Below are positions 7,808-57,724 of a stretch of DNA of 61,031 nucleotides, in pieces. Position 1 is the first letter of the stretch, and each line of letters starts with the position of its first letter. The stretch is from IMG/VR virus record IMGVR_UViG_3300006920_000008, positions 1-61,031 of that record. One strand, given 5' to 3'. The translations under genes were made by a program, and so were the position numbers. The DNA comes from a virus. A model generated the notes under the pieces. It was not told where the DNA came from, ran no database searches, and saw only the letters and a program-made list of their open reading frames with translations.

Positions 7808-7823
7808 GTGTCTTTGAAGACAC
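7808..7823 (-). repeat. Dispersed 16-bp palindrome, copy 3
   Basis: Exact copy lying in the 57-bp gap between the amidotransferase-cyclotransferase gene (ends 7842) and the next gene (starts 7784). CA-centred on the transcribed strand. Confidence 0.95.
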
Positions 7824-7841: not shown

Positions 7842-8921
7842 TTATTGTTTGCTGAAATTTAATATCTCATCTTCCTTAAACCAACCACCACAAGAAGAGC
7901 AGTAGTAGTTGTGAAACATATCGTGTTCAACATCATTGAAACAATCAATACAAGTTGGTGTCTCTGATGTTGGGAAATCATTGTCATCCCAACCGATGTC
8001 TATTGCTTGATGATTCTCAGTTGCATCATAAGTTGGCTGAACATCATCGAAAGTAAAACTTCGCTGAGGATAAACCCTTGTCTGTTTGTACTCACTATGT
8101 AACTCTGTGTCCGGATGAATGTCCTTTGGATTAAAGTATATCCAACAATTCAATGTTCTATTCTTTAGCTTTACCGGTATCTGAACTCTCTTGTACCACT
8201 GCGGATGTCCCTCAAGTTGGTCAACCTTTTTAAGTTGCATATCGCTAACCTTGAATACATCAACCACAACATTGTGACCTACACCTTTTTTGTTTACTAA
8301 GAATGGTAACCCATCAACAATTAAAGGATATTTGTCTTGTGTCTTTCCTCTACCAATGTGCTTTGCATTTGTAAGGTAAGAGTAATAGTTGTTGAATCCT
8401 TTCTTTAATGTTCCATACACCGCAATCAGATTGTCTTGCAATACATTTGCTTTTGAATACCAAATGCCATCACGATATGTATACATATTGCGATTGTAAA
8501 TTTGGAATGAACGAGTACGAACATTTACTGAAACAAATCTTGAATCATACTGCTCAAGATGTGTCTTCCAATTTCTACGATTCATTGAGCCAAGCTGAAT
8601 AGCTAATGCTTTTGAATCACATAACTCTGCACTACCAAGTCCTTTGATTGTTCCATTCATCATAAGGTATTCATCTTTGTTGTTACCACATACAAATGGA
8701 TGAGTGTTTGCTCTGTTGATTGCACCGACTGTTGCATATCTAAAGTGAGCAATGAATGGTCTCTTTGTTATTAGTTTACGATAGTCTTTTGATTTGTGGT
8801 AAGTTACCTCAAAGGTATCTAACCAAATGATTCCTAATCCGTGAGGATTAATTTTTGATGATGTCTTTGCTATCTCTTCAGACATCACATTGTTTTTCTG
8901 TTTAATAATAATTACACACAT
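7842..8921 (-). CDS. Class II glutamine amidotransferase fused to gamma-glutamylcyclotransferase and zinc ribbon
   Basis: A 359-residue three-domain protein. (1) Residues 1-155 are an Ntn-type glutamine amidotransferase: Cys2 nucleophile (MCVII), HFRYATVG (59-66), NTHPF (72-76), NGT (89-91), CDSKALA (101-107). (2) Residues 164-285 are a GGCT/AIG2-like cyclotransferase, with YGTLKKG (169-175) and the catalytic-Glu region QLEGHPQWY (235-243). (3) A C-terminal zinc ribbon has CIDC (324-327) and CSSC (341-344). Comparative genomics has linked such domains with amidoligases, and an amidoligase is encoded at 10253-11203. Together they may make or remove amide or gamma-glutamyl-like bonds on a peptide or cell-wall target. 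The substrate is unknown. Confidence 0.85.
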   Translation of the reverse strand: MCVIIIKQKNNVMSEEIAKTSSKINPHGLGIIWLDTFEVTYHKSKDYRKLITKRPFIAHFRYATVGAINRANTHPFVCGNNKDEYLMMNGTIKGLGSAELCDSKALAIQLGSMNRRNWKTHLEQYDSRFVSVNVRTRSFQIYNRNMYTYRDGIWYSKANVLQDNLIAVYGTLKKGFNNYYSYLTNAKHIGRGKTQDKYPLIVDGLPFLVNKKGVGHNVVVDVFKVSDMQLKKVDQLEGHPQWYKRVQIPVKLKNRTLNCWIYFNPKDIHPDTELHSEYKQTRVYPQRSFTFDDVQPTYDATENHQAIDIGWDDNDFPTSETPTCIDCFNDVEHDMFHNYYCSSCGGWFKEDEILNFSKQ

Positions 8922-8942
8922 AGTGATTTGAATTTGCGAGGA

Positions 8943-8958
8943 GTGTCTTTGAAGACAC
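8943..8958 (-). repeat. Dispersed 16-bp palindrome, copy 4 (5' leader of amidotransferase gene)
   Basis: Exact copy located between the predicted promoter (8985-8992) and the start of the amidotransferase gene (8921), so it should be in the untranslated leader of that mRNA. Confidence 0.95.
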
Positions 8959-8984
8959 TGACCTCTGATTTATAATTGATTGAA

Positions 8985-8992
8985 CAAATATA
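8985..8992 (-). promoter_or_regulatory. Bacteroidetes-type -7 promoter element
   Basis: TATATTTG on the minus strand (TAnnTTTG consensus), about 64 bp upstream of the amidotransferase start. It would give a leader of about 55 nt containing palindrome copy 4. Confidence 0.6.
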
Positions 8993-9017
8993 AGACTAAA
9001 TTTAGACATAACCTAAT

Positions 9018-9560
9018 TTAATCTAATAATTCTTTTTTAACTCTTTCCCAATAGATTTCTGTTGACTGCTTCTTGTGTCCTCTTGGTCCACCATTCCATT
9101 TTCTTGCAACGATTTCGAAGAACTCTAATTGAGTCAAACCTAAACAACATTCAACCTCTTCAGCCATTATGTCAAACATATCAATTGACTTCTGTCTGTT
9201 CCATCTGTCATTCATTTCGAACTTGAGATTGACCTTGTGTCCCCTGAGAACCCTGTTTACTTCCCTGACCATTATTGGTCTAATTTGTAGACAACCGACT
9301 GCCTTTTCTTTTTTATGGTATGCCGAATCATTACCTCTTGATTCTACATAGATGACTGCGTTAACGAAATCATCCCAGACAATTTTATGTTCCACTGTTA
9401 CCGGAACTGTGTCTACGGTATTTGCTACGGTGTCTGCTGATTGTAAAAGAAGGGAAGGAATTTCTTCCCTCCCGACTTCTGCAGTTTGTGTCTTTGAAGA
9501 CACATCACTGCCCACATATCCAACCACAGATAATGCTGATAGTAATATAAATTTTTTCAT
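9018..9560 (-). CDS. Secreted lytic-transglycosylase-like protein
   Basis: A 180-residue protein. Residues 1-17 (MKKFILLSALSVVGYVG) look like a signal peptide, followed by a low-complexity linker. The linker begins with VSSKT, encoded by palindrome copy 5. The C-terminal domain resembles an SLT/lysozyme-like fold: VESRGND with a candidate catalytic Glu73, GCLQI (89-93), and ARKWNGGPRG near 150. It probably cleaves peptidoglycan glycan strands outside the cytoplasm. Unlike typical lysis enzymes it lies in the early block next to the amidotransferase and amidoligase genes, which hints at a common cell-envelope target. Confidence 0.72.
   Translation of the reverse strand: MKKFILLSALSVVGYVGSDVSSKTQTAEVGREEIPSLLLQSADTVANTVDTVPVTVEHKIVWDDFVNAVIYVESRGNDSAYHKKEKAVGCLQIRPIMVREVNRVLRGHKVNLKFEMNDRWNRQKSIDMFDIMAEEVECCLGLTQLEFFEIVARKWNGGPRGHKKQSTEIYWERVKKELLD
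9488..9503 (-). repeat. Dispersed 16-bp palindrome, copy 5 (just after signal peptide)
   Basis: Exact copy coding VSSKT directly after the predicted signal peptide of the transglycosylase-like protein. CA-centred on the coding strand. Confidence 0.95.
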
Positions 9561-9745
9561 TTTGATTTGATTTGGTTATCTTCTTCTAAGAATACTTCAT
9601 CCAAGTAATATCCTTTTGTTCTGTGTATGTAAGCTATGAAATTATCCATATGCTTTTGGTCTTTAAACTCCTTGGTCAATGTCCAAAGAGATTTCCCTCT
9701 GCCGTAAGGAATCTTACCGGTTTCGAATTGTAATGTTGCTTTCAT
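9557..9745 (-). CDS. Hypothetical 62-residue protein
   Basis: Small hydrophilic protein with aromatic residues (KSLWTLTKEFKDQKHMDNFIAYIHRTKGYYLDEVF), overlapping the start of the transglycosylase-like gene by four bases. The segment around KHMDNFIAYIHRTKG looks like a small alpha/beta domain. No family recognised. Confidence 0.65.
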   Translation of the reverse strand: MKATLQFETGKIPYGRGKSLWTLTKEFKDQKHMDNFIAYIHRTKGYYLDEVFLEEDNQIKSK

Positions 9746-9746
9746 A

Positions 9747-9914
9747 TCATCTTGATTTTACTGCGTTAAACTTCGCTCTGATTATCCAAGGGAACTTGCT
9801 TATGTTGTCGTTATAAACTCTATCAATTGCTTCCCATTTAGAATGAGCAGGTAAGACTTTAATTAGCTTACCTGCATACCTAACTTTGTAGTAGTGTTGA
9901 ACTTCTCTATGCAT
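9747..9914 (-). CDS. Hypothetical 55-residue protein
   Basis: A short frame, start ATG 9914 and stop 9747-9749, giving MHREVQHYYKVRYAGKLI at the N-terminus and ending FNAVKSR. It fits exactly between its neighbours: the start overlaps the end of the membrane-protein gene by eight bases and the stop lies one base before the next ATG. This tight packing supports it as a real gene. It is basic and probably a single small alpha/beta domain; function unknown. Confidence 0.62.
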   Translation of the reverse strand: MHREVQHYYKVRYAGKLIKVLPAHSKWEAIDRVYNDNISKFPWIIRAKFNAVKSR

Positions 9915-10143
9915 TGTGTCTTTCTTTTATATCAGCTACAATTAAACCTATTGTTGCCCACATACAGAACAACAAGAATGCAAATACAATGAACATTGAC
10001 AATGCACCACTGATGGTCTGTAATAGACTTCTTGCATCGTTAAGTACAATGTGAATTAATAGTCTTCCCACCATTGAGAAAACTCCTAAAGTGATTGCGA
10101 TGTACAGAACTGATTCTGCGTAATTTTTGATTTGATTTTTCAT
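9907..10143 (-). CDS. Small two-helix membrane protein
   Basis: A 78-residue protein with two hydrophobic segments (about 12-34, VLYIAITLGVFSMVGRLLI, and 42-70, ISGALSMFIVFAFLLFCMW) and a charged tail (DIKERHNA), so an inner-membrane hairpin is likely. It could be an early membrane-modifying protein or an accessory holin, but the lysis cassette is elsewhere (17735-18723). Its place near the transglycosylase-like and amidoligase genes suggests an envelope role, which is inference. Confidence 0.65.
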   Translation of the reverse strand: MKNQIKNYAESVLYIAITLGVFSMVGRLLIHIVLNDARSLLQTISGALSMFIVFAFLLFCMWATIGLIVADIKERHNA

Positions 10144-10195
10144 TTTATTATAAATTAAATTAATGCTTCTGTTTCATCCTTTTGGAATCATCAGT

Positions 10196-10211
10196 CAAGG
10201 TACACACCTTG
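10196..10211 (-). other. Intergenic hairpin
   Basis: CAAGGT-ACAC-ACCTTG is a perfect 6-bp stem with a 4-base loop, in the 109-bp gap between the amidoligase gene and the membrane-protein gene. Flanking TGCTTCTGT and ACAGAAAGCA can extend the fold imperfectly. There is no T-run, so it is more likely a processing or structural RNA element than a terminator. Confidence 0.4.
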
Positions 10212-10252
10212 ATACAGAAAGCAGTTTTACATCTTGCTTAGGATATTGTTTG

Positions 10253-11203
10253 TTATGGTCTGTATCCGTTTGTTAACAAATCTCTGTCGTACCATTTCTG
10301 TGCATCTAATCTTCGCATTGGGTCACAGAATGGAATTACATCACGATTCACTTTGTGAGTAAGAATCATCTTGCGGAATGATTTCGCCAAGGAGATTATC
10401 TCAGCCACTTTCGTTTCATCATTGTTGTACATTGACTTCACAATTGGTGTTACTCTTTTAAGGAATGTGTTATGACTTCCGTTAGGATTGTTGATTGAGA
10501 AATCAAGTAACTCATACATCAATTCGTATCTTCTCATCATCTGCTTTACAGATTGGAATCTGCTTGGCAATCTAAACTCGATGCAGTTACCTTTCACAAG
10601 GATAACTTTGTATCTACCACCACCCCACATCATTGAATCTGTTGTGTCTGATGGCATCAATGTCATATTACCTCGGCAGTAAGAATTGTTTAATCTCTTA
10701 CGGAATAAAGACATAATGATTCCGGCATTCTTACGAACTGCTTCGAGCAAATCATCTCCACTCATACCTTGAACTGCGATTGTGATATGTCCACCACAAT
10801 TTGTTGAACTTGGAGAGTATTGGTCCTCGATTACTTTTCTCGCTTCAAACATCATATTGAAAACTTTGTTTCTCCACTTTCCACTTGGTAGTAATGGAAG
10901 AATGTTTGTCACTGCTTCATAGCCACAAGAAGAATCTCTTTCGAATCCGCAAAACAATGGGTATTCTTTCACTGCACCTCTGTGCAATCTGTTCTTCTCT
11001 ACTTCCATTCCGATAGTGAATTTAGAATCGTAGTTACCATCGCCTAAATCGACAAGGTTACGTTTCTGTGAAGACTTCAATGCTTTAATATCTGAAGACT
11101 TTGCACCTTTCGACATATCTCTGAAAGATGGCTTTCTGTGGTAAGAAGACATAACTCCTCTATCTCTTCTACCTTCTGTTGTGTATTGAATTTCTGTACT
11201 CAT
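10253..11203 (-). CDS. Predicted amidoligase (COOH-NH2 ligase of the glutamate-cysteine ligase / glutamine synthetase fold)
   Basis: A 316-residue protein, start ATG 11203; a GTG at 11239 would fall inside a palindrome copy and is rejected. Motifs in order: GMEVEKN (65-71, metal/ATP Glu residues), ERDSSCGYEAVT (88-99), TNCGGHITIA (134-143) and CIEFRLPS (207-214). This is the order and spacing expected of the amidoligase family (G-x-E-x-E; D-x-S...G-x-E; CG-x-H-x-H-like; E-F-R). These enzymes form amide or peptide bonds with ATP. The amidotransferase-cyclotransferase fusion and the transglycosylase-like protein are encoded just downstream, so a peptide-tagging or cell-wall-modifying pathway is plausible. 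The substrate is unknown. Confidence 0.85.
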   Translation of the reverse strand: MSTEIQYTTEGRRDRGVMSSYHRKPSFRDMSKGAKSSDIKALKSSQKRNLVDLGDGNYDSKFTIGMEVEKNRLHRGAVKEYPLFCGFERDSSCGYEAVTNILPLLPSGKWRNKVFNMMFEARKVIEDQYSPSSTNCGGHITIAVQGMSGDDLLEAVRKNAGIIMSLFRKRLNNSYCRGNMTLMPSDTTDSMMWGGGRYKVILVKGNCIEFRLPSRFQSVKQMMRRYELMYELLDFSINNPNGSHNTFLKRVTPIVKSMYNNDETKVAEIISLAKSFRKMILTHKVNRDVIPFCDPMRRLDAQKWYDRDLLTNGYRP

Positions 11204-11223: not shown

Positions 11224-11239
11224 GTGTCTTTGAAGACAC
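11224..11239 (-). repeat. Dispersed 16-bp palindrome, copy 6 (upstream of amidoligase)
   Basis: Exact copy in the 38-bp gap between the 214-residue protein gene (ends 11242) and the amidoligase start (11203). CA-centred on the transcribed strand. Confidence 0.95.
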
Positions 11240-11241
11240 TA

Positions 11242-11886
11242 TTATTGATTAATTGAATTTTGTAAAAACTGAATTGCGTTTGCAATCTCTTCTAAATTGT
11301 TACCGGATACATTTCCTTGGTCATCAATTCTAATAGATAGATTTGTTCCGTTAGGATTTTTGTATGTCATCACAAATTGATAGTTAACTCTATCTTGCTC
11401 TACAGATGCTTCAGCAATTACTTCTGCTTCTGCTTCAGCAATCTCTTCTTCTGTAGCATCTTCACTAACTTCAATAGCAGTTAAATCTATTGTTCTGCTA
11501 AACTCAAGCAATCCGGCAATTGAACGATTTGCATCTTGTCCGACTTCATCACATTTAGTGTTGAATGCATCTACTATTCTTTGGTCAAGGTTAGCCACCT
11601 TGATTAGCTTGTAGAAGAATGACTTCTGATATCCGAAGACTTTCTTACCGAACTCTTCTTTGTTCCATTCAATTCCCTCTTCACGAAAGATTGCTTTTGC
11701 TTCATCACTTCCGAACCATTCAACTGCTTCGCCAATTAGCTTAGCAAGTTTTGTTGTGTGATTGAATTTGCTCTTGTGAGCATTGTCGATTGAACGCTGA
11801 ATGCGTTTCACTTCATTTAGTTTCAGTGATTCTTTCACTGATGGCATTCTTAAGAATGCATTTTCGATTTCTAATAATTGACTCAT
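11242..11886 (-). CDS. First protein-coding gene of the early block, hypothetical
   Basis: A 214-residue protein. Residues 1-125 are helical (VKRIQRSIDNAHKSKFNHTT, FGYQKSFFYKLIKVANLDQRIVDAF) and could hold a DNA-binding helix-turn-helix. An acidic Glu/Ala-rich stretch (about 135-165, EDATEEEIAEAEAEVIAEAS) follows, then a small C-terminal beta domain (NYQFVMTYKNPNGTNLSIRID). As the 5'-most minus-strand protein gene it may be an early regulator, but there is no firm family match. Confidence 0.68.
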   Translation of the reverse strand: MSQLLEIENAFLRMPSVKESLKLNEVKRIQRSIDNAHKSKFNHTTKLAKLIGEAVEWFGSDEAKAIFREEGIEWNKEEFGKKVFGYQKSFFYKLIKVANLDQRIVDAFNTKCDEVGQDANRSIAGLLEFSRTIDLTAIEVSEDATEEEIAEAEAEVIAEASVEQDRVNYQFVMTYKNPNGTNLSIRIDDQGNVSGNNLEEIANAIQFLQNSINQ

Positions 11887-13006: not shown

Positions 13007-14602
13007 ATGTCAGAAATAGGATACACACCAAAGAACCTACAATTCGATAGCGAAGGTAGAGACAAACTATTCAAAGGAATAGAACAAATTGCTAAAGCAG
13101 TTAAGTCAACCTTAGGACCTTCCGGTCAAACAGTTCTTATTGAATCACCAAACCACACTAACGGAATTACTGTAACTAAAGACGGAGTGACAGTAGCTAA
13201 AGCAGTTTCACTAATTGACCCAACAGAAAACTTGGCAGTTAAGATAATGAAACAAGCTTCTGAACGAACCGCAACACAAGCAGGAGACGGAACAACTACT
13301 GCTATTGTTTTAACTGAGGCAATTGTAGAAGCAGCCAAACACATTATTAATGACTCTAACAAGACAGATGTTCTTAGGGACTTAATTAAAGAAACGAACT
13401 TGATTGTTTCTAACCTGAAGGCTAAAGCCAAGAAAGTAACTAATAAGATGCTGAAGGATGTAGCCACTATCTCCGCAAACAATGATGAAGAGTTAGGTGA
13501 TATTATAGCATCAGTTTATAAGAAGGTTGGTACAGATGGTATAGTAGCCGTGGATAAATCTCAAACATCAGATACATATTATGAAACCACAAATGGATTA
13601 AAAATTCAAAGAGGTTATGAATCACCATTGTTCGTAAACAATCAAAGGAAGGATGAATGTGTTCTTGAAGACTCTTATGTATTAGTTAGTGATGCACCAA
13701 TTGAAAATATATTAAGTATAGAGAGTATACTTAAACCAATTATACAAGGAAATAAAAAGTTACTAATCATAGCACCAACCTCACAAAACGTAACGAACAC
13801 TTTAGCTGCTAACGTTATGAAGAGTAATTTAAAGTTATGTGCTATAGGTCCACCATCATTCGGATACAAGCAACACGAACTAATGCAAGACATTGCTATT
13901 AGCGTTGGAGCAACTTACTTTAGTGAAAAGACCGGGGATGATTTATCATTGATGACAGAAAAAGATTTGGGTCACTGTGCTAAGGTGATAGTTAGCCGTG
14001 ACTCAACGGTCATCATAAAAGATGATGAAGAGTTAAATGATACCGTAGGGAAAAGAGTAGCGGAACTTAGGGTTGCTATGACAAATGAAAAACGTAAAGA
14101 AGAAAAGGAGTTTATCTTAAGTAGAATCGCAACACTAAATGGTGGTGTCGGTGTAATATACGTTGGTGGTCAAACAGACTTAGAACAAAAAGAATTATAC
14201 GATAGAGTTGATGATGCAGTATGTGCAGTACGTTCAGCTTTAGAGGAAGGCATACTTCCGGGAGGTGGTTCAGCATTAATGCAAGAAGCACACCGCATTG
14301 ATTTCAGTAAAGGTGAAACCACAGTTGCTCAACAAATTTTAGTGAAAGCACTTCGTGCTCCTATGTTTCAGATATGGGAGAACGCAGGTATTAAATATGA
14401 AGGTCAGTATGAAGCTTCAAAAGTAGAATACAATGATGGCTTTGATGTAAAGGAAAGAAGGTGGGGAGATATGTATAAGATGGGAATCATTGACCCACTA
14501 AAGGTAACTAAGTCCGCATTACAAAATGCAGTGTCGGTTGCAGTAACTATTTTATCAACCAATGCTATTATTACAATGGCAAGAACATACGAACAGAAAT
14601 GA
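13007..14602 (+). CDS. groL: Phage-encoded chaperonin GroEL (Cpn60)
   Basis: A 531-residue group I chaperonin subunit, close to the usual length of about 540. ATP-site motifs are present: LGPSGQ (36-41), KDGVTVAK (58-65), GDGTTT (93-98), a conserved RVDDA Asp region, and GILPGGGSAL near residue 415. The Gly-Gly-Met C-terminal tail of bacterial GroEL is missing. The sequence is clearly divergent from host-type GroEL, especially in the apical domain, which suggests adaptation to phage substrates such as capsid proteins. Its stop overlaps the groES start (ATGA), forming a dedicated two-gene operon behind its own promoter. Confidence 0.97.
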   Translation: MSEIGYTPKNLQFDSEGRDKLFKGIEQIAKAVKSTLGPSGQTVLIESPNHTNGITVTKDGVTVAKAVSLIDPTENLAVKIMKQASERTATQAGDGTTTAIVLTEAIVEAAKHIINDSNKTDVLRDLIKETNLIVSNLKAKAKKVTNKMLKDVATISANNDEELGDIIASVYKKVGTDGIVAVDKSQTSDTYYETTNGLKIQRGYESPLFVNNQRKDECVLEDSYVLVSDAPIENILSIESILKPIIQGNKKLLIIAPTSQNVTNTLAANVMKSNLKLCAIGPPSFGYKQHELMQDIAISVGATYFSEKTGDDLSLMTEKDLGHCAKVIVSRDSTVIIKDDEELNDTVGKRVAELRVAMTNEKRKEEKEFILSRIATLNGGVGVIYVGGQTDLEQKELYDRVDDAVCAVRSALEEGILPGGGSALMQEAHRIDFSKGETTVAQQILVKALRAPMFQIWENAGIKYEGQYEASKVEYNDGFDVKERRWGDMYKMGIIDPLKVTKSALQNAVSVAVTILSTNAIITMARTYEQK

Positions 14603-14856
14603 AACCAATAGGACACTACATATTAATTAGACAAATAAAAGAAGAGATTAAGACAGAGTCAGGTTTGTTATTATCTGCAGATGATGTATCTAACATAAGA
14701 TACAAAAAAGCTAAAGTTGTAAAGCCGGGAACAGATGTTTCTCACATTGCAGCAGAAGATATAATTTACTATGACTCAAGAGCAGGACACACAATGGTAA
14801 TCAAAGACGAACAATATACAGTTATTTCTGAGAGGGATGTTGTTGTTGTCGAATAG
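14599..14856 (+). CDS. groS: Phage-encoded co-chaperonin GroES (Cpn10)
   Basis: An 85-residue protein, slightly shorter than the usual 95. The N-terminal strand is IGHYILIRQI. The mobile-loop region KTESGLLLSADD corresponds to the segment that docks on GroEL. VVKPGTDVSHI and the final strand VISERDVVVVE complete the beta-barrel pattern. It forms the lid of the chaperonin made by the adjacent groEL. The last 35 bases overlap tail-to-tail with the frameshifted minus-strand gene. Confidence 0.9.
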   Translation: MKPIGHYILIRQIKEEIKTESGLLLSADDVSNIRYKKAKVVKPGTDVSHIAAEDIIYYDSRAGHTMVIKDEQYTVISERDVVVVE

Positions 14857-21640: not shown

Positions 21641-24211
21641 ATGGCATATATAAAGTTTAAGGAACCCATTGACGTTACCGATGACCTTAAGGTTAACGGT
21701 ACATCTTTGGGGTCCAATGCTTTTACGAGCACAACAATTCCAACAGACAATAATCAGTTAACTAACGGGAGGGGTTATATTACTCTTGCTCAAGTACCGG
21801 CTGAGTCTGATACTTTAGCTACAGTTACAGGGAGAGGTGCTACAACAAATAGTGCTCTTACTTTAAATGGTAACGTAACCTTAGGTAGTAGTGCCGATTT
21901 AGTATTTAAAGACTTAGGGGGAACTTTTCCAACATCAGGTAAAGGTTTTGATTGGACCTTAAATAATGATGGTGCAAGAATCTACGCACAACAACCATCT
22001 TCTGATTCAATTAATTTTGTTTTTGAATTAAGAGATAACACAACTGTAAACGATAAATTTATATTTTACGTTAAAGACTACAGAGGTGCAGCATTCAATA
22101 GAACTCCACTTGAATTGAGAGGTGGTACTATTGTTGATTTAGTAGATTCAGCTTTATATACCAATGGCTCTTTAAGACTTTCTAATACAGGTGTTCTTTC
22201 AAATGTAACAAACACCAATTGGGATAATGCTTACAACAATCAAATTACAAAACTTGCAGTAACCGGTAACACAACTAAAACATTAACTGCTACTCAACAA
22301 GATGGTGGTACGTTAACTGCATCTTGGACAGACAACTCAGCTTCAGTAAGCAATAATAAAATTACATTATCTGCAGGTTCAGGTATGAGTGGTGGAGGAG
22401 ACTTTACACTAAACCAAACTACAGATGAAACAATCACACTAACAAACAACGACAAAGGCTCTTCTCAGGCAATATTTAAAAATGTTACTAATGGTGTGGG
22501 CATTATTAAAGCAACATCAAATAACGACACTTAAACTCTTATTGGTTGTAAAGGAACAAATGTAACTATTAACGAAGAAACAAGAGAAGTTGAGTTTTGT
22601 GTTGATAGACAAACATTATCTGTAGTAGGTGAGGAACTTACTATAACCGATGGTAACACTGTAACCCTACCAACAAACACAGGACCTCAAGGTCCTAAAG
22701 GAGATACGGGAGCACAAGGACCGGAAGGTCCGGAAGGACCACAAGGTGCAAAAGGAGACACGGGAGCAGCCGGTGCAAAAGGAGATACGGGAGCAGCCGG
22801 TGCAAAAGGAGATACGGGTAGTCGAGGACCAATAGGCTTGACAGGACCGGAGGGTCCTCAAGGTCCTAAAGGAGATACAGGCGACCAAGGTGTTAAAGGT
22901 GATACCGGAAGCCAAGGACCAATAGGATTAACAGGTCCACAAGGACCCGAAGGACCACAGGGTGATATTGGCAAGACCGGTGATACGGGTGCTAAAGGCG
23001 ATACAGGTGCACGGGGTCCTATCGGATTGACAGGACCTGAAGGTCCACAAGGACCAAAGGGTGATACAGGTGACCAAGGTCCCAAAGGAGACACAGGTTC
23101 TCAGGGTCCTATAGGTTTGACGGGACCAACGGGACCCGAAGGACCACAGGGTAAGACCGGTGCCACAGGAGCCACCGGACCACAGGGACCTAAAGGAGAT
23201 ATTGGAGCAACAGGACCGGAAGGTCCTAAGGGAGATACCGGAAGTACGGGTCCACAAGGTGCTAAGGGAGATACCGGAAGTACGGGTCCACAAGGTCCGG
23301 AAGGACCCGAAGGACCACAAGGGAAAACCGGAGATACCGGTGGTGTTGGACCTGAAGGACCTAAGGGAGATACAGGTGCTAAGGGAGATACCGGAAGTAC
23401 GGGACCAACGGGACCGGCAGGTGCTAAGGGTAGTACCGGAGCAGTTGGACCTGAAGGACCGGAAGGACCGGAAGGAGCCAAAGGCGATACGGGAGCAAAA
23501 GGAGACACGGGAGCAGTTGGACCGACAGGACCAAAAGGTAGCACCGGAAGTGTAGGACCGGAAGGACCTGCAGGAAAAGATGGAGCAACAGGTCCGGAAG
23601 GACCTGAAGGACCTAAAGGAAGCACAGGGTCAACGGGACCTCAAGGTCCACAGGGTCCGGCAGGAGCCAAAGGAAGCACAGGGTCAACGGGACCGCAGGG
23701 ACCGGAAGGTCCGGAAGGTCCGGAAGGTCCGGCAGGAGCCAAAGGAAGTACAGGCTCAGTAGGACCGCAGGGACCGGAAGGTCCACAAGGAGAAAAAGGA
23801 AACACCGGTGCACAAGGACCAATAGGATTAACGGGACCTCAGGGAGCCAAAGGCGATACCGGAAGCCAAGGACCTCAGGGAGCCAAAGGTGATACAGGAA
23901 GTACAGGACCACAAGGACCACAGGGTCCGGCAGGAGCAGATGGTAAAGATGGAGCAACAGGACCTCAAGGTCCACAGGGTGCAACCGGCTCAAAAGGAGC
24001 AACCGGAGCAACAGGACCTCAAGGTCCACAAGGTCCACAAGGACCACAAGGACCTGCAGGAGCAGATGGTGGCGGTGATATTTTCCTTAACGGTAAACAA
24101 ACACAAATTGTTAGACAAGATTATATTACAGAAGGTAAGACTGCATACTTGCAAATAACTTTTGATGATGGAAGTACAACTTGTATATTGTTAACTCGAT
24201 GTGAGTTTTAA
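21641..24211 (+). pseudogene. Collagen-like tail fibre gene interrupted by an in-frame TAA
   Basis: One reading frame runs from ATG 21641 to 24211 (857 codons) but contains a single TAA at 22532-22534. Before it lies a 297-residue fibre stalk (AYIKFKEPIDVTDDLKVNGT ... GIIKATSNNDT). After it the same frame continues [20 protein letters not shown] ... LPTNT, then 154 collagen-like Gly-x-y triplets, then a C-terminal cap ([20 protein letters not shown] ... CEF). No ATG or GTG start with a leader is seen between the stop and the collagen block; only a TTG inside the repeats (22838) could start. One substitution (for example TTA or CAA to TAA) explains the break, but stop readthrough is possible. 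Confidence 0.82.
22682..24067 (+). repeat. Collagen-like Gly-x-y coding repeat
   Basis: An unbroken run of 9-base units encodes 154 consecutive Gly-x-y triplets, with units such as [18 protein letters not shown] and GSTGPQ. It is exactly 1386 bases, a multiple of nine, so there is no indel within it. It would form a long triple-helical shaft in the tail fibre and is prone to recombination between repeats. Confidence 0.93.
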
Positions 24212-48808: not shown

Positions 48809-51800
48809 ATGAATCCATTAGAAGGCAAAACAAAAGAAGAGGTTGAACAACTGTTAAGGGATTACATTACTACGGTTAACAACCCGGTATATAAAGGGAA
48901 TATAGATGTAATAAATTCTAAGTTCCCTGAATTTAGTGGAATAGATGTTCAGGTGTTACAGGACTATATTGCCACTTATAATAATCCGGAATACTCAGGA
49001 AATTACGATGTAATAAATTCTAAGTTTCCTGAATTTTTTGCAGGAGTAAAAAAAAAAAAACAAACACAAGAAGATACGGATTCTTCTTCGGAAGATGGTT
49101 CTTCGGATTTGTCCGACATTCCTGAATTTGACCCAAGTACATTTAATTATGACCCAACCGCACCGGGTGCTCCAAGAGACACAAGAGAAGATGGCTATGT
49201 AAGTCCTATGTCTACCCAAAATATGGGTATGTATCCTGAGCAAAATGTTCTTGAAAGAGCACAAAACCAAATGGCAGCAGACTTTGCTTTTACGACAGAG
49301 CAAAGAAATAAAGATTTACCGGACCTAAGACTACAACAAGAGCAAGAGGCTAAGGCTAAAGAAATAGAAAGAGAGTTAAAGAATGCAGAGATATTAGGTG
49401 TACTACAAGACGAAACTTTTGTAAATGAAATATCACAAATAGATGCTTCTCTTATAGATAAAGAAGAGGAAGAGGTTGTTCCTTTTTTAATAAAGAATTT
49501 TAAAAAATATGGGTTTAGGTTTGTTGAATCAGGCATTGGCGATAACGTTACTGTAACTGCACCTGATGGAAAAACTACAACTACAATTGATTTAGACCCC
49601 TTCACATCTGACGGGGAAAGACAAGGAGCAGATAAACTAAGAAACTTTATAAAAGGAAACCTTGGTGGTGCTGCTAAAAAACCTTTATCGTCTGAAGTTC
49701 AAAAAGCAATCAAAGCAAAAACATTAAGAAAGATTCCTTTAAAAAACGAAGATGGAACAGTATCAACTGTTAGAATGACCTCGTTTGAAGAGGATGGTAA
49801 GCACAAGGTTATACCTATGCTGCATCCTGTTAATCCTGACCACTATACATCAGATGGGATGTGGTGGCATCAAGACTTAAGTTTTGATGAGGCTTTAAAA
49901 TTGGCAAGAGAAAGAGATGAGGTTTTTGAATTCGACACCAAAGAAGAAGCAGAGGCTTTTGCTCAGGGCAGTTGGAAGGATGTGGCTACTGCAGAGGCAG
50001 AGATGGAAAAATACTATGATGAGAGAGGTCTTGATTATTCTACTGAAAGAAAACTTTTATCTGATTATGACGAAGCTAAAGACACAGAAAACTTTTTAAG
50101 TGGTGCTCCGTTTAAACAAGAAGACCTTAGTCCTCAGGACCAAATAAAATATGATAAATTTTATATCAATGGTAGATTAAGGGATGATTCTTATGAACTT
50201 AAAAAGGCTGCTACAAAAAGAAGAGAAGAATTAGCAGATGCATATCTTGATGACGAAGCAATGTATGTTAGGGAAGAAGCAGACCTTTATCTTGAAAAAA
50301 GAAGAAAGGCTACTATTGGGGATGCAATAAAAATAAACGTTGCCGCAAAAGAAGCTGAACAAGCAATTGAAAATAAAAGCTTAAGATATTTTGGTGTGAA
50401 GCCAAGTGAATTAAGTCTTTACGAACCCCAAGACGAAAGAGAGGCTCAGATAAAAAAAGTTATTGAATTAGAGTATGGTGCTCAACAATACAAATCTCAG
50501 ATTGCTGCAGATGCTTATAAAGAAGCTTCAACATACTATGATTTAAAGTACGACAAGTATGCTGAAAAAGAGTATGCTGAAAATTGGGAAGGGTTTCAAG
50601 TAGCCTTAGAGAACGGAACCAATATGGGTAAAGCAGGTGATTTAATTTTAGCTGCTACAATGTACCCGGGGTTTATGGATGGTATTGACCTTGAAGACCC
50701 TGAGTCTACTTCATTAATGGCAGAGAAGATTGTAGACTATATGAATCGAACTTCTGACAAAAGGTCAAGAGTTTTAAATAGATGGGAGAAAGCATCTAAT
50801 ATGGATGAGAATTGGGATGTTATTTTAGACGACCCATTTGAGTGGATGACATCATTAGCAGCACATAGTCTCTCTATGATGTTGCCGTATGGTAAAAAGA
50901 TTATTCCTATATCTATGGCTGCAGGTACAGTTGCAGGTGGAGTTTATGGTAGTGTTGTTCCCGGTGCAGGTACTGCTGCCGGTGCAGCAACAGGATTTAC
51001 TTGGGGTACAAGAACAGGGTTTGCAGCTACTTCATTGGCTATGGAATATACCAACGCAGTTCTTGAGGCTATTACAAATCAAGGATACGATATGACAGAC
51101 CCTGAATCTGTGGCAAAAGCTTTGAATGACGAAAAAGTTTGGGCAGAAGGTAAAGAGCGTGGATTTAAAAGAGGTGTTCCAATTGCTATTGTAGATTTAA
51201 TTACTGCAAAATTAGCAGGTAACCTTATAAGAGTTGGAAGTGTATCAGGAAAAGGAGCGAGAATTGCAGCTTTAACTGCAGAACGTATGATAGCTGACCC
51301 AATTGGTGAAGGCTTTGGCGAACTTGCTGCTCAAATAACAGTTGGTGATGATATAAACATCAAAGAGATAATGGCTGAGATGGGTGGTGCTATGGGTAAC
51401 AACACATCTAATATGGCAATTAATCTTGCACTACAAGCAAGAAGTAGAAACAACTTAGAGTTAGCATCAGCATTTACAGATATAAAGTTTATGTCTGATG
51501 AGTTGTCTTCAGGAACTAAGATTTCTGCTTGGGCAAATAATATGGAACGTCTTGGTCAAATAGATGCTGAGACTAATCAGCGTATACAAATGAACGTTGG
51601 TTTAAGAAAGACTGCAAGGGAACTGTTAAATAACACAGGAGCATTTTCAAGAATTAAAAGAAATGGCGAAGTAGAAACAAGAGTTATGGAACTTCTTGCA
51701 GCTAAGGAGGAAATGTCATCAACACCAAATAGAAAATCAATTTTCAGTAATAAGATTGGTGAAATAAATAAAGAGTTAGAGGACATAATTACTACTCGAA

Positions 51801-54800
51801 AAACAAGACCACTAAACGAGCAAACTATTCTTGCAGGTACAGGTGTTTTTTCTATTGGAGAACAAGCAAACGTTTCTGATGTAAGAGAAGGGTTACCATC
51901 TTATAGAATTAAGAAAAATAGATTTGGAAGATTACAACAAGTTTCTAAAGAAGAGTTTGTTGAATTTATAAATGGACTTAGTCCTAATGAGTTGCTTCGT
52001 ATGAGTGCAACTGTAGATAATGATGATGAGGTATCTAAGTTAGTTTCTCGAAAGTTAGTTGAAGCAAACATTCAAGAAGCAAGAGGTGGTGCTCAAACAA
52101 CTACGGAAACTGAAACAGAGGTAAGAGATACTCCTGAAGCTGAAACAGAGGTAAGCGAAGAGCAAAGTGAAGTTCCTACAGAAACAGGCATTGTTCCTAC
52201 AACAACAGAAGAAGTGTCTTCAAAGACACAAACTGAAGAAACCACTCCGGCATTACCTGAGGGTACTCAAACAACTCCTGCTCTTAATCAAGGTCAAGGT
52301 CAAGCAAGTGTTGGTGTTATAGAAGAAACAAAAGAAACAGAAACCCAACAAGCGGCAGAGGACTTTGAGGCTTCACTAAAAGAAGAGGAATCAGGTAAAA
52401 AACCAAAGGTAGATTTCAGATTAGAGATAGATGAGACTACTGATGAAAATGCAAAACAAGAAGCTGAAGATGAAGTGACCAATGCAATAAACGCAATGGA
52501 AAGTCCAAACGTTGATGTTAAGATTACACCTGATGAAATGACATCAGAAAAGATTGATGTTGATGAACTAAATAGTAGAACAGATAGACCACTGAAGATT
52601 ACTAATCTTAAAGTTGTCAAGGGTGTTCCTACTATGTTTAGTATTACAGACCAACTAACAACAGGAACCGTTACTAATCCTGTTACGGGGAATGTAATTG
52701 AAGACCTTAAGGGTGCGATTGGTTTCAATGGAACTGTAGGCAATGAACAAGCAGCTTGGGCAAATGTGGAAGAGAAAGAGGCTCAGACTATTATAAGTAG
52801 AGCAGAAAAAATCTATCAAGAAAACCAAGAAATATTTAAAGATTTTTGGGCAAAGAATCCTGAGTACAATGGTTTGGTTCCAATGAACATTGTTAAGATG
52901 GGTCAAGATGCTATGCAATCTAACGAAGCAGTTGTAAGAGTGTTAGCAGATAATATAGGTACGTTGCCTAAGAGAAACAGAAAGTCAGCAGTTCGTGTTT
53001 TAAAAACACAGATGAAGGAGGACTTGGTTAAGTTAAAGGCTAAGCCTAAAAAGAACGCTACTGATAAAAAGAATATTAGAAACCTAACTGACCTATTAAA
53101 AAGATTTAGAGAAGGCAAGGTTACAACAATGGACCAAGCACTTACTCCTCAATTTATAGAGAATATGTCTCTACCTATGAGAGCAAAGTTGGTTGGATAC
53201 CTAACCACAGGAGTCATTCAGGAAGCTAAGGGTAAAGAAAAGAAAGTTGGAGGAGTAACTAAAAGCACAAAGGTTACAGTAAAAGAACTTTTGAAAGGTG
53301 TAGAACAGGATGCAGCTAAACTAAACTTGGCTCAGATAACTAATTTACTTACAGACCCACAACTAAAAAACGTACCTATTGGTAACGTTGTTGCGTTGGT
53401 TGGTGTTGATGTTTTAAATCCGGGTATCATAGAAACCACACATCCTAATTACAAATATGGTGTTAGAGGAAAGTCAATTGGTATACTTGAAAATCCACAA
53501 TCAATGGAGACGGTATATCCTAAAGCTTTCGAAAAGATAATGGCTAAGATGATTACCTCTGAATCAAGTGGTAAAAAGTTTGCTGCTAAAACAAAAAGAA
53601 CTCAAACAACAGGTGTGGGGATTGGTGTTCCGGATAAAGATTATATTGGTATTATGGCAACCATCAATCCTGATGAGTCTACCAAACTAAATGCATTTAT
53701 GAACTTAGCGTTCCCGTCTGTAGTAATAAATTCAGACGTAGATACATTCAACAATGTAATGTCTCAAGACAACGTTAGAACATATCTAAGAGGTGATGAA
53801 ATCATTTATGGTGTAACAGTGGATGGAGATATTTATATCAACCCTGAGGTGCACGAAACCAAGTCTTCCTTGTACAATACATCTATACACGAAATGGGTC
53901 ACGTTTGGACAGACTACTTACAGACAACAAAGAAAGGTAGAGAGATTTACAAGAAGGGTGCTGAGGTTGTTCAAGAAACTGAGGAGTTTAAAAAACAACT
54001 TAAAAGATTTGATGGTGATGTAGATAAAGCCACAAGAGAAGCTATGGCTATTCTTATTGGTAATAAAGGTGAGACAATAGTTAATGGTTCTATTAAGTCC
54101 AAGTTCAGCGAATGGTTGATTGGGATGTGGAATTATATCAAGTCTCAATTTAAAATGTCTAAAGACCTGTCAGCAGAAGAAATTCAAAACTTAACACTTG
54201 ATGAATTCTTAGGTACTGCATTAGCAGATATCTTTGCAGGTAAGCCACTGAAGATGACAGAGGCTCAAACAAAAGCTTTAAAAAACCCTGAAGCTATGTT
54301 TAGTTCCGGGATGAGTATAGATAGTATTATTCAGAAAGGAAGAGACCAAGGTATCCCTGATGAATCAATTAGAGTAGTCTTAAAAAACAGAGGCTTTAGT
54401 GCAACTGATATCAACAAGGCAATGGTAGTAAACATAGGATTAAGAGTTCCTATGCCAAGAGTTTTTGGAGATGTGAACGAAGGTGCGAAGGTTGGTTTTA
54501 GATTATTTAATAATGTAAGAACTGCAGTAAATAAATTTGCATTTGACAAGACGGGAAGAATTAAAACTTTTTCTGAGATAAGAGAAAAAGCATTTGATAC
54601 TTTAAAAGCCGACCCAATATTTAAAATTCAAACTGAACAATTACAGAACGAGTTACTTGTTGCATTTGATAGAGCACTTGGTATTAGAGGAAATGCTAAG
54701 GTTGCAAGAGAAATAAATAACATTAAGAAAAATCTTAAGCAAAGAAAGATAAGTGCAGATAATCTTACAGATGCACAAAGAAGAATGAGAATGATTATTC

Positions 54801-57724
54801 GTAAGCTTCTACCTGCAGGTAAGAATTATTCTAAAACAGTAATCAACAGATTACTAAAAACAGTCAACACAACTACACCTAAAAACTTCATAGGTAAAAT
54901 GTCTGAGGTTTTAAAAGAAGTTGAGATTGAAAGAAATAATGAAAAGAACAGAGTAATAAAAGACATCCTAACTATAGTAAAAAAGAAAGCAAGAAAATCT
55001 AAAACATCTTCAGGCAAGGTAAGAGCAGCAGGGTTAGATGCAATAGGTCAAGCCTATTTCTCTCAAGTAAAAGAAGTTTTGGATGCAGTAATGAAACAAG
55101 ACTTCGAAACATTACAGGAATTAGCAGATAGCGTTAGAGACGAAAAGATTACAGAAATACTTCAGAAACAAGAAGAAGGTAAGAAGCTTACATCAAAAGA
55201 AAAGTTACTTCTTGACAGAAGAATTGCAATAGATTCTTTTGCAGACGTTATGACAATGGAACTTGAAGATGTTCAGGAGTTACTCGAAGATGTCAAGAGT
55301 GCAAGGAAAGAATCAATTCAAAGATTAAATAACAGAAAAGAAGAAAGAAGACAGAAAGTAGAAGAAAAACAAAAAGAGTTTAATGAACAAATAAAAGACG
55401 ACTTTGGTCAGCTATATGATGAGAACGGTAATCCACTAAACGATAACGGTCTTGAGAAGAATAAGCAGTTTATTAGAAAAGCATTTAAAGAAAAAGGATT
55501 GTTTGGAGCAGTCACTGCATTCTTTAATCAGTTTAAAGAAAATGGTGTAAAAGATTTAACATCAAATGGTGTAGCTAAGTTTATGCAAAACTATGTTACT
55601 CACTTTAAAACGTTTACTAATATACTTGACGGAAATAAAGACGGAATGTTTACTGAAACATTTTTTAATGTGTTGAACGACTTCGATGAAAGAAATCTTC
55701 AAGGTGTTAGAAGAACCGAAAGTGATATGAATGCTATGACTAATTCTACTCACGGTAAAAAATGGACCGATTGGAAGTATTCATTAGGAACAGATGTTCA
55801 AGAGTTGTCATTTATAGATACAGAAACAGGTAATAGAACCTCAAATGTTTTCAATAAAGACCAAGCAATGAGAATCTATGCGTTGTCTCTAAACCCAATT
55901 CAGGCAGAAAAGTTAGCTAAGATGGAGGTGGATTTAGAATTAGTTAAAAGATTTATTGGTAAAGACAATCAAGAGTTGGTAGAGCAAACTGTAGATTTTT
56001 TAAGTAATAAATATTTTGAAGAGACCAATTCAGTTTACCAACAAGTAAATGATGTTAGTCTTGGTTATGTAGAAAATTACTTTCCTACAAGAACAATTAG
56101 TAAAGGAGCAATCACCAACGATATGATTCTTCAAGGAGAGTTTAACAAGGTGTTTACTGCGGAGTTTTCTCCTGCACTTAAAGAGCGTGTTGATTTAACA
56201 GGAGATGTTTTATTAGGCTTGTCTTTCAGTGAGGTTATGGAGGAGCACGTTAAGGCTATGGAGAAGTACAAGGCATATGCCGTAGGTGTCAAAGAAATGA
56301 ACGCAATACTTCAGGACCAAGGAATACAAAACCTTTTAAACGAAACAGGTTTGAAGCAATTGTTTTCAAGGTCGCTTAATTATGCCATTAATCCTGATTC
56401 GGGACCACAAGTAGAAAGTGCAGATGTGGTTACAAAATTACAATCTTTGTTTACAGGTTTTGCTTTAGCACTAAAATTGGTTCAGATTCCAAAGCAGATG
56501 TCTTCATTTATATTTGCGTGGCAAAAGTATAACGCATTGCCATCAGGTAAATATATTCCGGGGTTAGACACACTTGGGTTTATGAAAGACTATGCTGAGG
56601 TATTGTTGTTCTTAAGAACAAATATTAAGGAAGCAAGAGAGATATCGGCAACTTTTGATAATCGTATCAAGCAAGGTTTAGAAGGTGATGTATTTGGTAT
56701 TGAATCGGGTGGTAGAACTTTTAAGAAAACAAAAGCACAACAAGGTAGAAAGGGTCGTGCTGCAAGAGCATTTACAAAAGTAAAAGGTTTTACTACAGTC
56801 GCAGGGGATATCCTTGGTGTACTCGGATACAAAGCTTTATACAACAGACAAATCAGAAATGGTGTAGATAAAAATGAAGCACTTAGAAATTTCAATGATT
56901 ACAACTCTACTCAGCAATCAAGAAGAGCAACAGAAAAAGTAGGACTTCAGCAAAGCACAGATGCTCTTAACAGAACGTTTACAATGTTTGGTAGTTCTTT
57001 GTTTCTAATGATGAACAATGTTTACCAATCTTCTATGAATGTAACAAGCGACATTATGAAGGGTAAGATGCCTAAGAGAGAACAGATTCGTAAATTGCTT
57101 TTAAATTATTCATTAGCAAACGTTGCGTTTACCGCAGTGTCATACGCACCTGCATTACTTCACGGTAAAGATGGAGAGAAAGATAGAGCGTACAAAGCAT
57201 TGAGAGATGCAGCGTTAGGACTTAACTTAATCTATGCTATACCTATTATGGGTTCTGCAATTGAAACGGCAATAGCATACGCTGAGAAAGATAGAAAGCC
57301 AATCTCTGATGTTGTAAACCCATTAACATCTGTAGTTAGAAAAGTATTCAAGAGTATTAAAGATGTCAGTGGTCCTGATGGGTTAGTTCAAGCAACGAGA
57401 GTGTTGTTAGAAATTTATTCAGGAATGCAACTTGATGCACCAATAGGATTAATAAAGCTTCTCGGAGGCAGTGGTGATTCAGATGATATGTATGATGCAC
57501 TTGGTATCACACCATCTTACAGACCGGGTTATGGGCAAACTAAACCAAAGGGTGAAACTAAAAAGAAATCAACTACTGCAGAAGATAAGAGAGCAATAAA
57601 GGCTATTGACCCTGAGTTGTACGAAGAACTATACGGGAAAGAAAGACCTACATATGGAATCGAGCAGGAGTTAAAACAGATGAAAAAAGAAATAAAAGAT
57701 GAACTTAAAGAGACATATAACTAA
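48809..57724 (+). CDS. Giant polyvalent/internal virion protein with metallopeptidase motif
   Basis: A 2971-residue protein, the largest in the genome. The N-terminus has two copies of a NNPxYxGNxDVINSKFPEF repeat (about 23-41 and 56-74). A Gly/Ala-rich hydrophobic zone lies at about 685-750 (GTVAGGVYGSVVPGAGTAAG) and may insert in membranes. A Glu/Thr-rich linker (about 1095-1200) carries VSSKT from palindrome copy 9. HEMGH at 1694-1698 is a zinc-metallopeptidase site. Basic helical regions follow. A C-terminal domain (GFALALKLVQIPKQMSSFIF) resembles segments of large ejected proteins. It is probably injected with the DNA, combining wall or protein cleavage with channel formation. Confidence 0.78.
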   Translation: MNPLEGKTKEEVEQLLRDYITTVNNPVYKGNIDVINSKFPEFSGIDVQVLQDYIATYNNPEYSGNYDVINSKFPEFFAGVKKKKQTQEDTDSSSEDGSSDLSDIPEFDPSTFNYDPTAPGAPRDTREDGYVSPMSTQNMGMYPEQNVLERAQNQMAADFAFTTEQRNKDLPDLRLQQEQEAKAKEIERELKNAEILGVLQDETFVNEISQIDASLIDKEEEEVVPFLIKNFKKYGFRFVESGIGDNVTVTAPDGKTTTTIDLDPFTSDGERQGADKLRNFIKGNLGGAAKKPLSSEVQKAIKAKTLRKIPLKNEDGTVSTVRMTSFEEDGKHKVIPMLHPVNPDHYTSDGMWWHQDLSFDEALKLARERDEVFEFDTKEEAEAFAQGSWKDVATAEAEMEKYYDERGLDYSTERKLLSDYDEAKDTENFLSGAPFKQEDLSPQDQIKYDKFYINGRLRDDSYELKKAATKRREELADAYLDDEAMYVREEADLYLEKRRKATIGDAIKINVAAKEAEQAIENKSLRYFGVKPSELSLYEPQDEREAQIKKVIELEYGAQQYKSQIAADAYKEASTYYDLKYDKYAEKEYAENWEGFQVALENGTNMGKAGDLILAATMYPGFMDGIDLEDPESTSLMAEKIVDYMNRTSDKRSRVLNRWEKASNMDENWDVILDDPFEWMTSLAAHSLSMMLPYGKKIIPISMAAGTVAGGVYGSVVPGAGTAAGAATGFTWGTRTGFAATSLAMEYTNAVLEAITNQGYDMTDPESVAKALNDEKVWAEGKERGFKRGVPIAIVDLITAKLAGNLIRVGSVSGKGARIAALTAERMIADPIGEGFGELAAQITVGDDINIKEIMAEMGGAMGNNTSNMAINLALQARSRNNLELASAFTDIKFMSDELSSGTKISAWANNMERLGQIDAETNQRIQMNVGLRKTARELLNNTGAFSRIKRNGEVETRVMELLAAKEEMSSTPNRKSIFSNKIGEINKELEDIITTRKTRPLNEQTILAGTGVFSIGEQANVSDVREGLPSYRIKKNRFGRLQQVSKEEFVEFINGLSPNELLRMSATVDNDDEVSKLVSRKLVEANIQEARGGAQTTTETETEVRDTPEAETEVSEEQSEVPTETGIVPTTTEEVSSKTQTEETTPALPEGTQTTPALNQGQGQASVGVIEETKETETQQAAEDFEASLKEEESGKKPKVDFRLEIDETTDENAKQEAEDEVTNAINAMESPNVDVKITPDEMTSEKIDVDELNSRTDRPLKITNLKVVKGVPTMFSITDQLTTGTVTNPVTGNVIEDLKGAIGFNGTVGNEQAAWANVEEKEAQTIISRAEKIYQENQEIFKDFWAKNPEYNGLVPMNIVKMGQDAMQSNEAVVRVLADNIGTLPKRNRKSAVRVLKTQMKEDLVKLKAKPKKNATDKKNIRNLTDLLKRFREGKVTTMDQALTPQFIENMSLPMRAKLVGYLTTGVIQEAKGKEKKVGGVTKSTKVTVKELLKGVEQDAAKLNLAQITNLLTDPQLKNVPIGNVVALVGVDVLNPGIIETTHPNYKYGVRGKSIGILENPQSMETVYPKAFEKIMAKMITSESSGKKFAAKTKRTQTTGVGIGVPDKDYIGIMATINPDESTKLNAFMNLAFPSVVINSDVDTFNNVMSQDNVRTYLRGDEIIYGVTVDGDIYINPEVHETKSSLYNTSIHEMGHVWTDYLQTTKKGREIYKKGAEVVQETEEFKKQLKRFDGDVDKATREAMAILIGNKGETIVNGSIKSKFSEWLIGMWNYIKSQFKMSKDLSAEEIQNLTLDEFLGTALADIFAGKPLKMTEAQTKALKNPEAMFSSGMSIDSIIQKGRDQGIPDESIRVVLKNRGFSATDINKAMVVNIGLRVPMPRVFGDVNEGAKVGFRLFNNVRTAVNKFAFDKTGRIKTFSEIREKAFDTLKADPIFKIQTEQLQNELLVAFDRALGIRGNAKVAREINNIKKNLKQRKISADNLTDAQRRMRMIIRKLLPAGKNYSKTVINRLLKTVNTTTPKNFIGKMSEVLKEVEIERNNEKNRVIKDILTIVKKKARKSKTSSGKVRAAGLDAIGQAYFSQVKEVLDAVMKQDFETLQELADSVRDEKITEILQKQEEGKKLTSKEKLLLDRRIAIDSFADVMTMELEDVQELLEDVKSARKESIQRLNNRKEERRQKVEEKQKEFNEQIKDDFGQLYDENGNPLNDNGLEKNKQFIRKAFKEKGLFGAVTAFFNQFKENGVKDLTSNGVAKFMQNYVTHFKTFTNILDGNKDGMFTETFFNVLNDFDERNLQGVRRTESDMNAMTNSTHGKKWTDWKYSLGTDVQELSFIDTETGNRTSNVFNKDQAMRIYALSLNPIQAEKLAKMEVDLELVKRFIGKDNQELVEQTVDFLSNKYFEETNSVYQQVNDVSLGYVENYFPTRTISKGAITNDMILQGEFNKVFTAEFSPALKERVDLTGDVLLGLSFSEVMEEHVKAMEKYKAYAVGVKEMNAILQDQGIQNLLNETGLKQLFSRSLNYAINPDSGPQVESADVVTKLQSLFTGFALALKLVQIPKQMSSFIFAWQKYNALPSGKYIPGLDTLGFMKDYAEVLLFLRTNIKEAREISATFDNRIKQGLEGDVFGIESGGRTFKKTKAQQGRKGRAARAFTKVKGFTTVAGDILGVLGYKALYNRQIRNGVDKNEALRNFNDYNSTQQSRRATEKVGLQQSTDALNRTFTMFGSSLFLMMNNVYQSSMNVTSDIMKGKMPKREQIRKLLLNYSLANVAFTAVSYAPALLHGKDGEKDRAYKALRDAALGLNLIYAIPIMGSAIETAIAYAEKDRKPISDVVNPLTSVVRKVFKSIKDVSGPDGLVQATRVLLEIYSGMQLDAPIGLIKLLGGSGDSDDMYDALGITPSYRPGYGQTKPKGETKKKSTTAEDKRAIKAIDPELYEELYGKERPTYGIEQELKQMKKEIKDELKETYN
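52214..52229 (+). repeat. Dispersed 16-bp palindrome, copy 9 (linker of giant protein)
   Basis: Exact copy GTGTCTTCAAAGACAC coding VSSKT inside an acidic Thr-rich linker of the giant virion protein. CA-centred on the coding strand. Confidence 0.95.

Follow-up and report, generated by a model that had tools for sequence, protein, structure and literature searches.

Gene clusters that encode an amidoligase, a class-II glutamine amidotransferase (GAT) and a gamma-glutamyl cyclotransferase (GGCT) recur in many unrelated phages, and the published accounts examined give them no demonstrated function. The association of these genes in phages is already in print (PMC5498523, PMC3890496, PMC10580990), including as the podovirus 'peptidoglycan modification cassette' of Pseudoalteromonas phages PSA-HP1 and RIO-1 and of phiEco32, tf, LUZ24, PaP3 and UFV-P2 (PMC5498523, PMC3890496). 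We analysed a 61,031-nucleotide stretch of viral DNA (IMG/VR record IMGVR_UViG_3300006920_000008, positions 1 to 61,031; hereafter the window) that carries a related but more compact set. As in the podovirus cassette, where amidoligase, class-II GAT and GGCT/AIG2 genes are clustered among replication genes, the three predicted activities lie together here. The podovirus cassette, however, consists of separate genes, and a further ligase (PF14395) and an ATP-grasp enzyme belong to it as well; in the window there is one amidoligase, a divergent one, while GAT, GGCT and ribbon share one chain. Both open reading frames (ORFs) are present where a sequence-only reading of this DNA had placed them, at 7842-8921 (the fusion) and 10253-11203 (the amidoligase). 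Sequence comparison and structural modelling suggest that the two genes probably form a cytoplasmic module with three activities for making or unmaking carboxamide or gamma-glutamyl bonds.

The sequence-only reading described the fusion as an N-terminal nucleophile (Ntn) amidotransferase, a GGCT-like domain and a zinc ribbon in one chain, and domain profiles, folds and a CxxC-x13-CxxC motif all bear this out. PF06094 (GGACT) matched residues 167-266 with an E-value of 2.5e-21 (76.9 bits against a cut-off of 22.8); the GATase_4 and GATase_6 matches were weak (2e-4 and 2e-3, under the curated cut-off), and PF06094 and GATase_4 were both matched by all 24 aligned members of the family. By fold, the GAT domain resembled EgtC (Z 10.7) and GlmS (Z 10.3), and the cyclotransferase domain matched GGACT with a Z of 17.9 over 120 residues, its closest solved relative being the human protein. 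The GAT residues C2 (right after the initiator methionine), R61, T64, N89, G90 and D102, together with Y169, G170 and L172 of the cyclotransferase YGTL loop and E237, are found in 85 of 85 fusion homologues, and E237 aligns with E82 of GGACT, the position mutated to Gln in PDB 3jud. The C-terminal ribbon, which probably serves in binding, occurs in 81 of the 85 and is missing in four, and is thus a dispensable accessory. Because an N-terminal cysteine nucleophile leaves no room for an N-terminal signal peptide, established Ntn chemistry implies that the fusion should act in the cytoplasm.

The amidoligase is poorly covered by existing family models. We found no Pfam (including PF12224), NCBIfam or PADLOC match for the window protein, a PF12224 search of the phage's own genome was negative, and one of 26 aligned proteins matched PF12224; an unnamed PHROG was matched by 1 of 24 members, and the window protein matched no PHROG. 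Family models alone are therefore insufficient to identify it. An AlphaFold2 model built from an alignment of 24 relatives (mean pLDDT 82.6) retrieved at Foldseek ranks 1-50 exclusively glutamine synthetases (GS), YbdK, the Pup ligase PafA and gamma-glutamylmethylamide synthetase (GmaS). When the lineage profile was compared by hhalign with eight phage proteins annotated as amidoligase or carboxylate-amine ligase, among them the PF12224-type proteins of phages C75C1 and Salgado, it aligned over 176 columns with 95.3% probability (E 2.3e-8), against 2.3% for a control with the fusion profile. The expected motifs, noted in general terms by the sequence-only reading, are present in order (GMEVE, D-S, GYE, CGGH, R-YC-N and IEFR), and the series ExE...D/S...GxE...CGxH...R-YC-N...IEFR aligns with PF12224-type members. 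Across 78 distinct homologues, E67, E69, D90, E96, C136, H139, R170, E209 and R211 are invariant and C176 and N179 nearly so, the core motif residues overall being kept in 76-78 of the 78. By motif and modelled fold, the product is an amidoligase, one that lies outside the Pfam model. At loci L020 (407-625) and L109, the amidoligase frame is split in two within the contig, with a stop after 73 residues and two profile matches, which may reflect a frameshift, an assembly error or a pseudogene.

Neither of the two tests that the sequence-only reading had named could refute it. The catalytic residues are intact in the homologues of both proteins (85 of the fusion, 78 of the amidoligase), with the exception of the two nearly invariant positions, and a survey of gene neighbourhoods in related phages found the pair together throughout: of the viral loci fetched with the fusion profile, 66 reached 4 kb or more beyond the fusion on its upstream side, and every one of these carried the amidoligase there, on the same strand and 0.5-4.9 kb away. 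The linkage persists though the genes between the two turn over. Beyond this lineage, phage C75C1 combines a fusion about 40% identical to that of the window with a canonical PF12224 amidoligase that shares just 18% identity with the window protein. In Arthrobacter phages Salgado and Ottawa, domain searches of whole records found GGCT, amidoligase and GAT side by side as three genes (the GGCT was revealed by the search, not by annotation). Such searches also showed GGCT, GAT and a ligase as neighbours in Vibrio phage 1.293.O, and GGCT beside GAT in Pseudoalteromonas phage Slicky01. Thus, GAT and GGCT are separate partners of amidoligases elsewhere, and the fusion unites both partners in one chain.

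Several observations weigh against a single module with three activities. The best VIA-align score of the amidoligase model (Z 8.2 for YbdK, followed by about 7.8 for GS and 7.0 for gamma-glutamylcysteine synthetase) is close to the background of the tool, though one fold fills the list, so the assignment rests on Foldseek, hhalign and motif order combined; in addition, the structural models were built on narrow alignments. The 66 loci all belong to one phage lineage, several of their contigs overlap the first locus set and some are near-duplicates, so they are not independent events and the synteny is partly inherited. Finally, Bacillus phage 055SW001, Geobacillus phage GR1 and a Blautia phage have an amidoligase and GGCT with no GAT detected, and Marvin and MEP402 have weak amidoligase matches and a GAT with no GGCT detected, which indicates that phages do not always require the full trio of activities.

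We propose that the GS-fold amidoligase would use ATP to activate a carboxylate and then condense it with an amine; the likeliest carboxylate is that of a glutamate side chain or a similar group. The GAT domain, through Cys2, would hydrolyse glutamine or, like EgtC, a gamma-glutamyl amide, and would either supply ammonia to the ligase or trim its product, and the cyclotransferase domain would release gamma-glutamyl groups as 5-oxoproline. This scheme presumes that all the domains are catalytically active, that their steps run in the order given and that they share one substrate. Two chemical readings fit these parts. GAT-derived ammonia might be used by the amidoligase to amidate a carboxylate, with the GGACT domain clearing gamma-glutamyl side products, or the amidoligase might attach glutamate via its gamma-carboxylate to an amine, with GAT and GGACT removing it; since EgtC and GlmS tie as fold matches, structure does not choose between them. 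The cyclotransferase does constrain the target, as it requires a gamma-glutamyl group with a free alpha-amine. The normal peptidoglycan stem, L-Ala-gamma-D-Glu-mDAP, offers no such group, and simple cleavage inside the stem is therefore unlikely. The target may instead be a lysine in a protein, a soluble metabolite or a branch added to a precursor of the cell wall. A more speculative extension, to which we give little weight, is reversible gamma-glutamyl tagging of a host or phage macromolecule, written by the amidoligase, erased by GAT/GGCT and controlled by the 16-bp palindrome described below. If true, this cycle would be a modification system without prior biochemical description.

Modification of peptidoglycan precursors is a possible, if doubtful, alternative function, in which UDP-MurNAc-peptide or lipid II would be amidated or gamma-glutamylated at an early stage of infection. 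Wall built from these precursors would then withstand superinfecting phages, or hold out against the phage's own lysins until the proper moment. The authors of the PSA-HP1 and OM43-phage studies proposed such a role for homologous cassettes (PMC5498523, PMC10580990) with reference to Iyer et al. and Hardies et al. 2013, and MurT/GatD is an earlier case in which the glutamate of peptidoglycan is amidated (PMC3267633). Yet none of the papers examined reports an experiment on this role, and the window phage lacks, at family level, the PF14395 and R2K ATP-grasp proteins of the full cassette (PF14395, R2K_2 and R2K_3 gave no match; other ATP-grasp families were not searched for). The unmet alpha-amine requirement of the cyclotransferase and the poor conservation of the neighbouring SLT-like gene, documented below, also count against it. 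A role in small-molecule metabolism seems unlikely. Here the enzymes would handle a gamma-glutamyl metabolite, or run a protecting-group cycle like that of ergothioneine (EgtA plus an EgtC-like enzyme), to save nitrogen or to neutralise a toxin made by the host. The resemblance of the amidoligase to YbdK and gamma-glutamylcysteine synthetase and the EgtC match of the GAT domain point this way, but EgtC is tied with GlmS, so that fold cannot decide the matter, and the scanned parts of the phage encode no dedicated biosynthetic enzyme.

Protein tagging, which we also consider rather improbable, would have the amidoligase join glutamate or a peptide to lysines of host or phage proteins in the manner of PafA and Pup, with GGACT taking the tag off isopeptides again. 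Human GGACT acts on gamma-glutamylamines, and its standing as closest solved relative favours this idea, as does the presence of PafA among the Foldseek matches of the amidoligase; however, the conserved neighbours include no small protein with an invariant C-terminal Glu or Gln. Small neighbours were considered as a Pup-like carrier and dropped because their C-termini vary. Very improbable, and largely refuted, is the view that the genes are unrelated neighbours co-inherited in one phage lineage. Although the confinement of all 66 co-occurrences to that lineage would suit it, unrelated phages also encode the three activities side by side, in other orders and unfused, and C75C1 keeps a different amidoligase beside the same fusion. 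Two further candidates were rejected: DNA hypermodification, as the early genes scanned (a part of the gene set) contained no dedicated base-modification enzyme, and a defence system, as PADLOC gave no match. We favour the cytoplasmic module with three activities, as one that writes and erases amide or gamma-glutamyl bonds.

The sequence-only reading had also placed palindrome copies upstream of both genes, and exact copies of a 16-bp palindrome, GTGTCTTCAAAGACAC, do lie just before each (Table 1). The window contains 10 exact copies, against a chance expectation of about 0.01 even allowing two mismatches, and 9 of the 10 are oriented with the strand of the surrounding genes, as judged from the ORF map. 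Of 85 distinct homologues of the fusion, 38 have an exact copy ahead of the gene, and in 37 of them it lies 19-23 nt from the start; for the amidoligase, 24 of 81 have an exact copy upstream. Diverged copies retain the stem through paired changes, for example ATGTCTTCAAAGACAT, GTCTCTTCAAAGAGAC, GTGTCGTTAACGACAC and GTCTGTTCCAACAGAC. We searched 2.9 million viral contigs for a pattern made up of the palindrome, a spacer of 15-28 nt and ATGTG, the last part being picked to suit the fusion gene; of the 66 stretches that matched, 53 are fusion starts. The palindrome was absent from the loci fetched from other phages. It looks like a lineage-specific shared control element, likely a dimer operator or an RNA hairpin. 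We reject the role of plain terminator for the majority of copies, which lie inside genes or before starts without a T run; a T run does follow the copy at 7808-7823 in the direction of transcription. Copies in coding linkers within the Sak, SLT and 2971-residue ORFs read VSSKT in frame, the last of these being a giant ORF at 48809-57724. The same reading accounts for an alternative, longer, GTG-started amidoligase ORF reaching 11239, which exists only because the upstream palindrome reads VSSKT; homologues support the start at 11203.

Table 1. Features of the window in and around the amidoligase-fusion region.
Feature	Position	Strand	Basis or remark
GAT-GGACT-ribbon fusion, 359 aa: class-II GAT (1-158), GGACT-type cyclotransferase (about 163-284), Cys4 ribbon (324-344)	7842..8921	-	
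Amidoligase (COOH-NH2 ligase) of GS fold, 316 aa, divergent from PF12224	10253..11203	-	Fold, profile, motifs
Palindrome GTGTCTTCAAAGACAC	8943..8958	-	About 21 nt upstream of fusion ATG
Palindrome GTGTCTTCAAAGACAC	11224..11239	-	20 nt upstream of amidoligase ATG
Exact palindrome copies	3618, 4910, 7808, 8943, 9488, 11224	-	
Exact palindrome copies	16160, 28969, 52214, 60555	+	
Near copies of palindrome	12098 and 36106		
Secreted SLT/lysozyme-like protein	9018..9560	-	PF01464 sub-threshold; not a conserved module part
Small membrane protein	9907..10143	-	Mainly in close relatives; not a conserved module part
Conserved gene directly upstream of amidoligase	11242..11886	-	In most relatives
Primase-type protein (BT4734-like_N/PriCT_1), PD-DEXK protein, Sak annealase, DnaA-C-like protein	Left side of window	-	
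GroEL and GroES pair	13007-14856	+	First of the rightward genes
Amidase, holin		+	Among genes after GroEL/GroES

The genes between the amidoligase and the fusion do not appear to belong to the module. The sequence-only reading had drawn a transglycosylase-like protein and a membrane protein into the pathway. The former carries an ES..QI motif and a sub-threshold PF01464 match (E 5.6e-4, 19.9 bits against 21.3), and its gene is found in 12 of 81 surveyed loci. The membrane protein gene is present in 27 of 127 loci (duplicates included), mostly in close relatives. Thus, the enzyme identities, their linkage and the palindromes of that interpretation stand, and these two proteins drop out of it. 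The gene directly upstream of the amidoligase, by comparison, is present in 113 of 127 loci (duplicates included); its product has no significant family match and no recognisable domain. It may be part of the operon core, and is a candidate regulator or third member of the module.

Early expression of the operon would fit its neighbours, which include the Sak annealase, PD-DEXK, DnaA-C-like and primase-type genes. The first and last 70 bases of the window are identical (1-70 = 60962-61031), so it probably represents a complete genome, circular or circularly permuted, or one with direct terminal repeats. A collagen-like Gly-X-Y repeat protein at 22654-24211, with a repeat unit of 9 nt, is probably a fibre. 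This widespread lineage of uncultured phages is represented by hundreds of viral contigs (303 matching stretches), and a megablast search of the region against deposited phages gave no match. Relatives of the window are found in IMG/VR contigs, in the deposited podovirus MW202828 and in contigs of one Cytophagales and one Flavobacteriales metagenome-assembled genome, which makes a Bacteroidota host likely.

Podoviridae sp. ctfjg026 (MW202828), a diverged relative that shares the GroEL/GroES pair, has orthologues of both genes at 42-44% identity, directly adjacent with no gene between, and their annotation says no more than 'hypothetical protein' and 'gamma-glutamyl cyclotransferase'. Salgado and Ottawa resemble the window in having amidoligase, GGCT and GAT all together, but their genes are unfused and the amidoligase is of the canonical PF12224 type (E 2.7e-35 in Salgado). 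C75C1 (OQ984151) shares a GAT-GGCT fusion with an amidoligase about 0.85 kb upstream, although its amidoligase is again canonical and its fusion has no zinc ribbon. The ergothioneine pathway pairs a GS-fold ligase, EgtA, with EgtC, a gamma-glutamyl hydrolase of class-II GAT fold that is also the top fold match of the window GAT domain; that pathway has no GGCT domain, and no other ergothioneine gene was seen in the window phage. The association of these genes in phages is known, and the fused architecture and the divergent amidoligase are new as far as the literature shows, Iyer et al. 2009 left aside. The window brings in a family of amidoligases not captured by current models, links in one module the GAT and GGCT partners found apart in other phages, and, as the smallest set with all three predicted activities found in this analysis, offers two proteins that are practical to express and assay.

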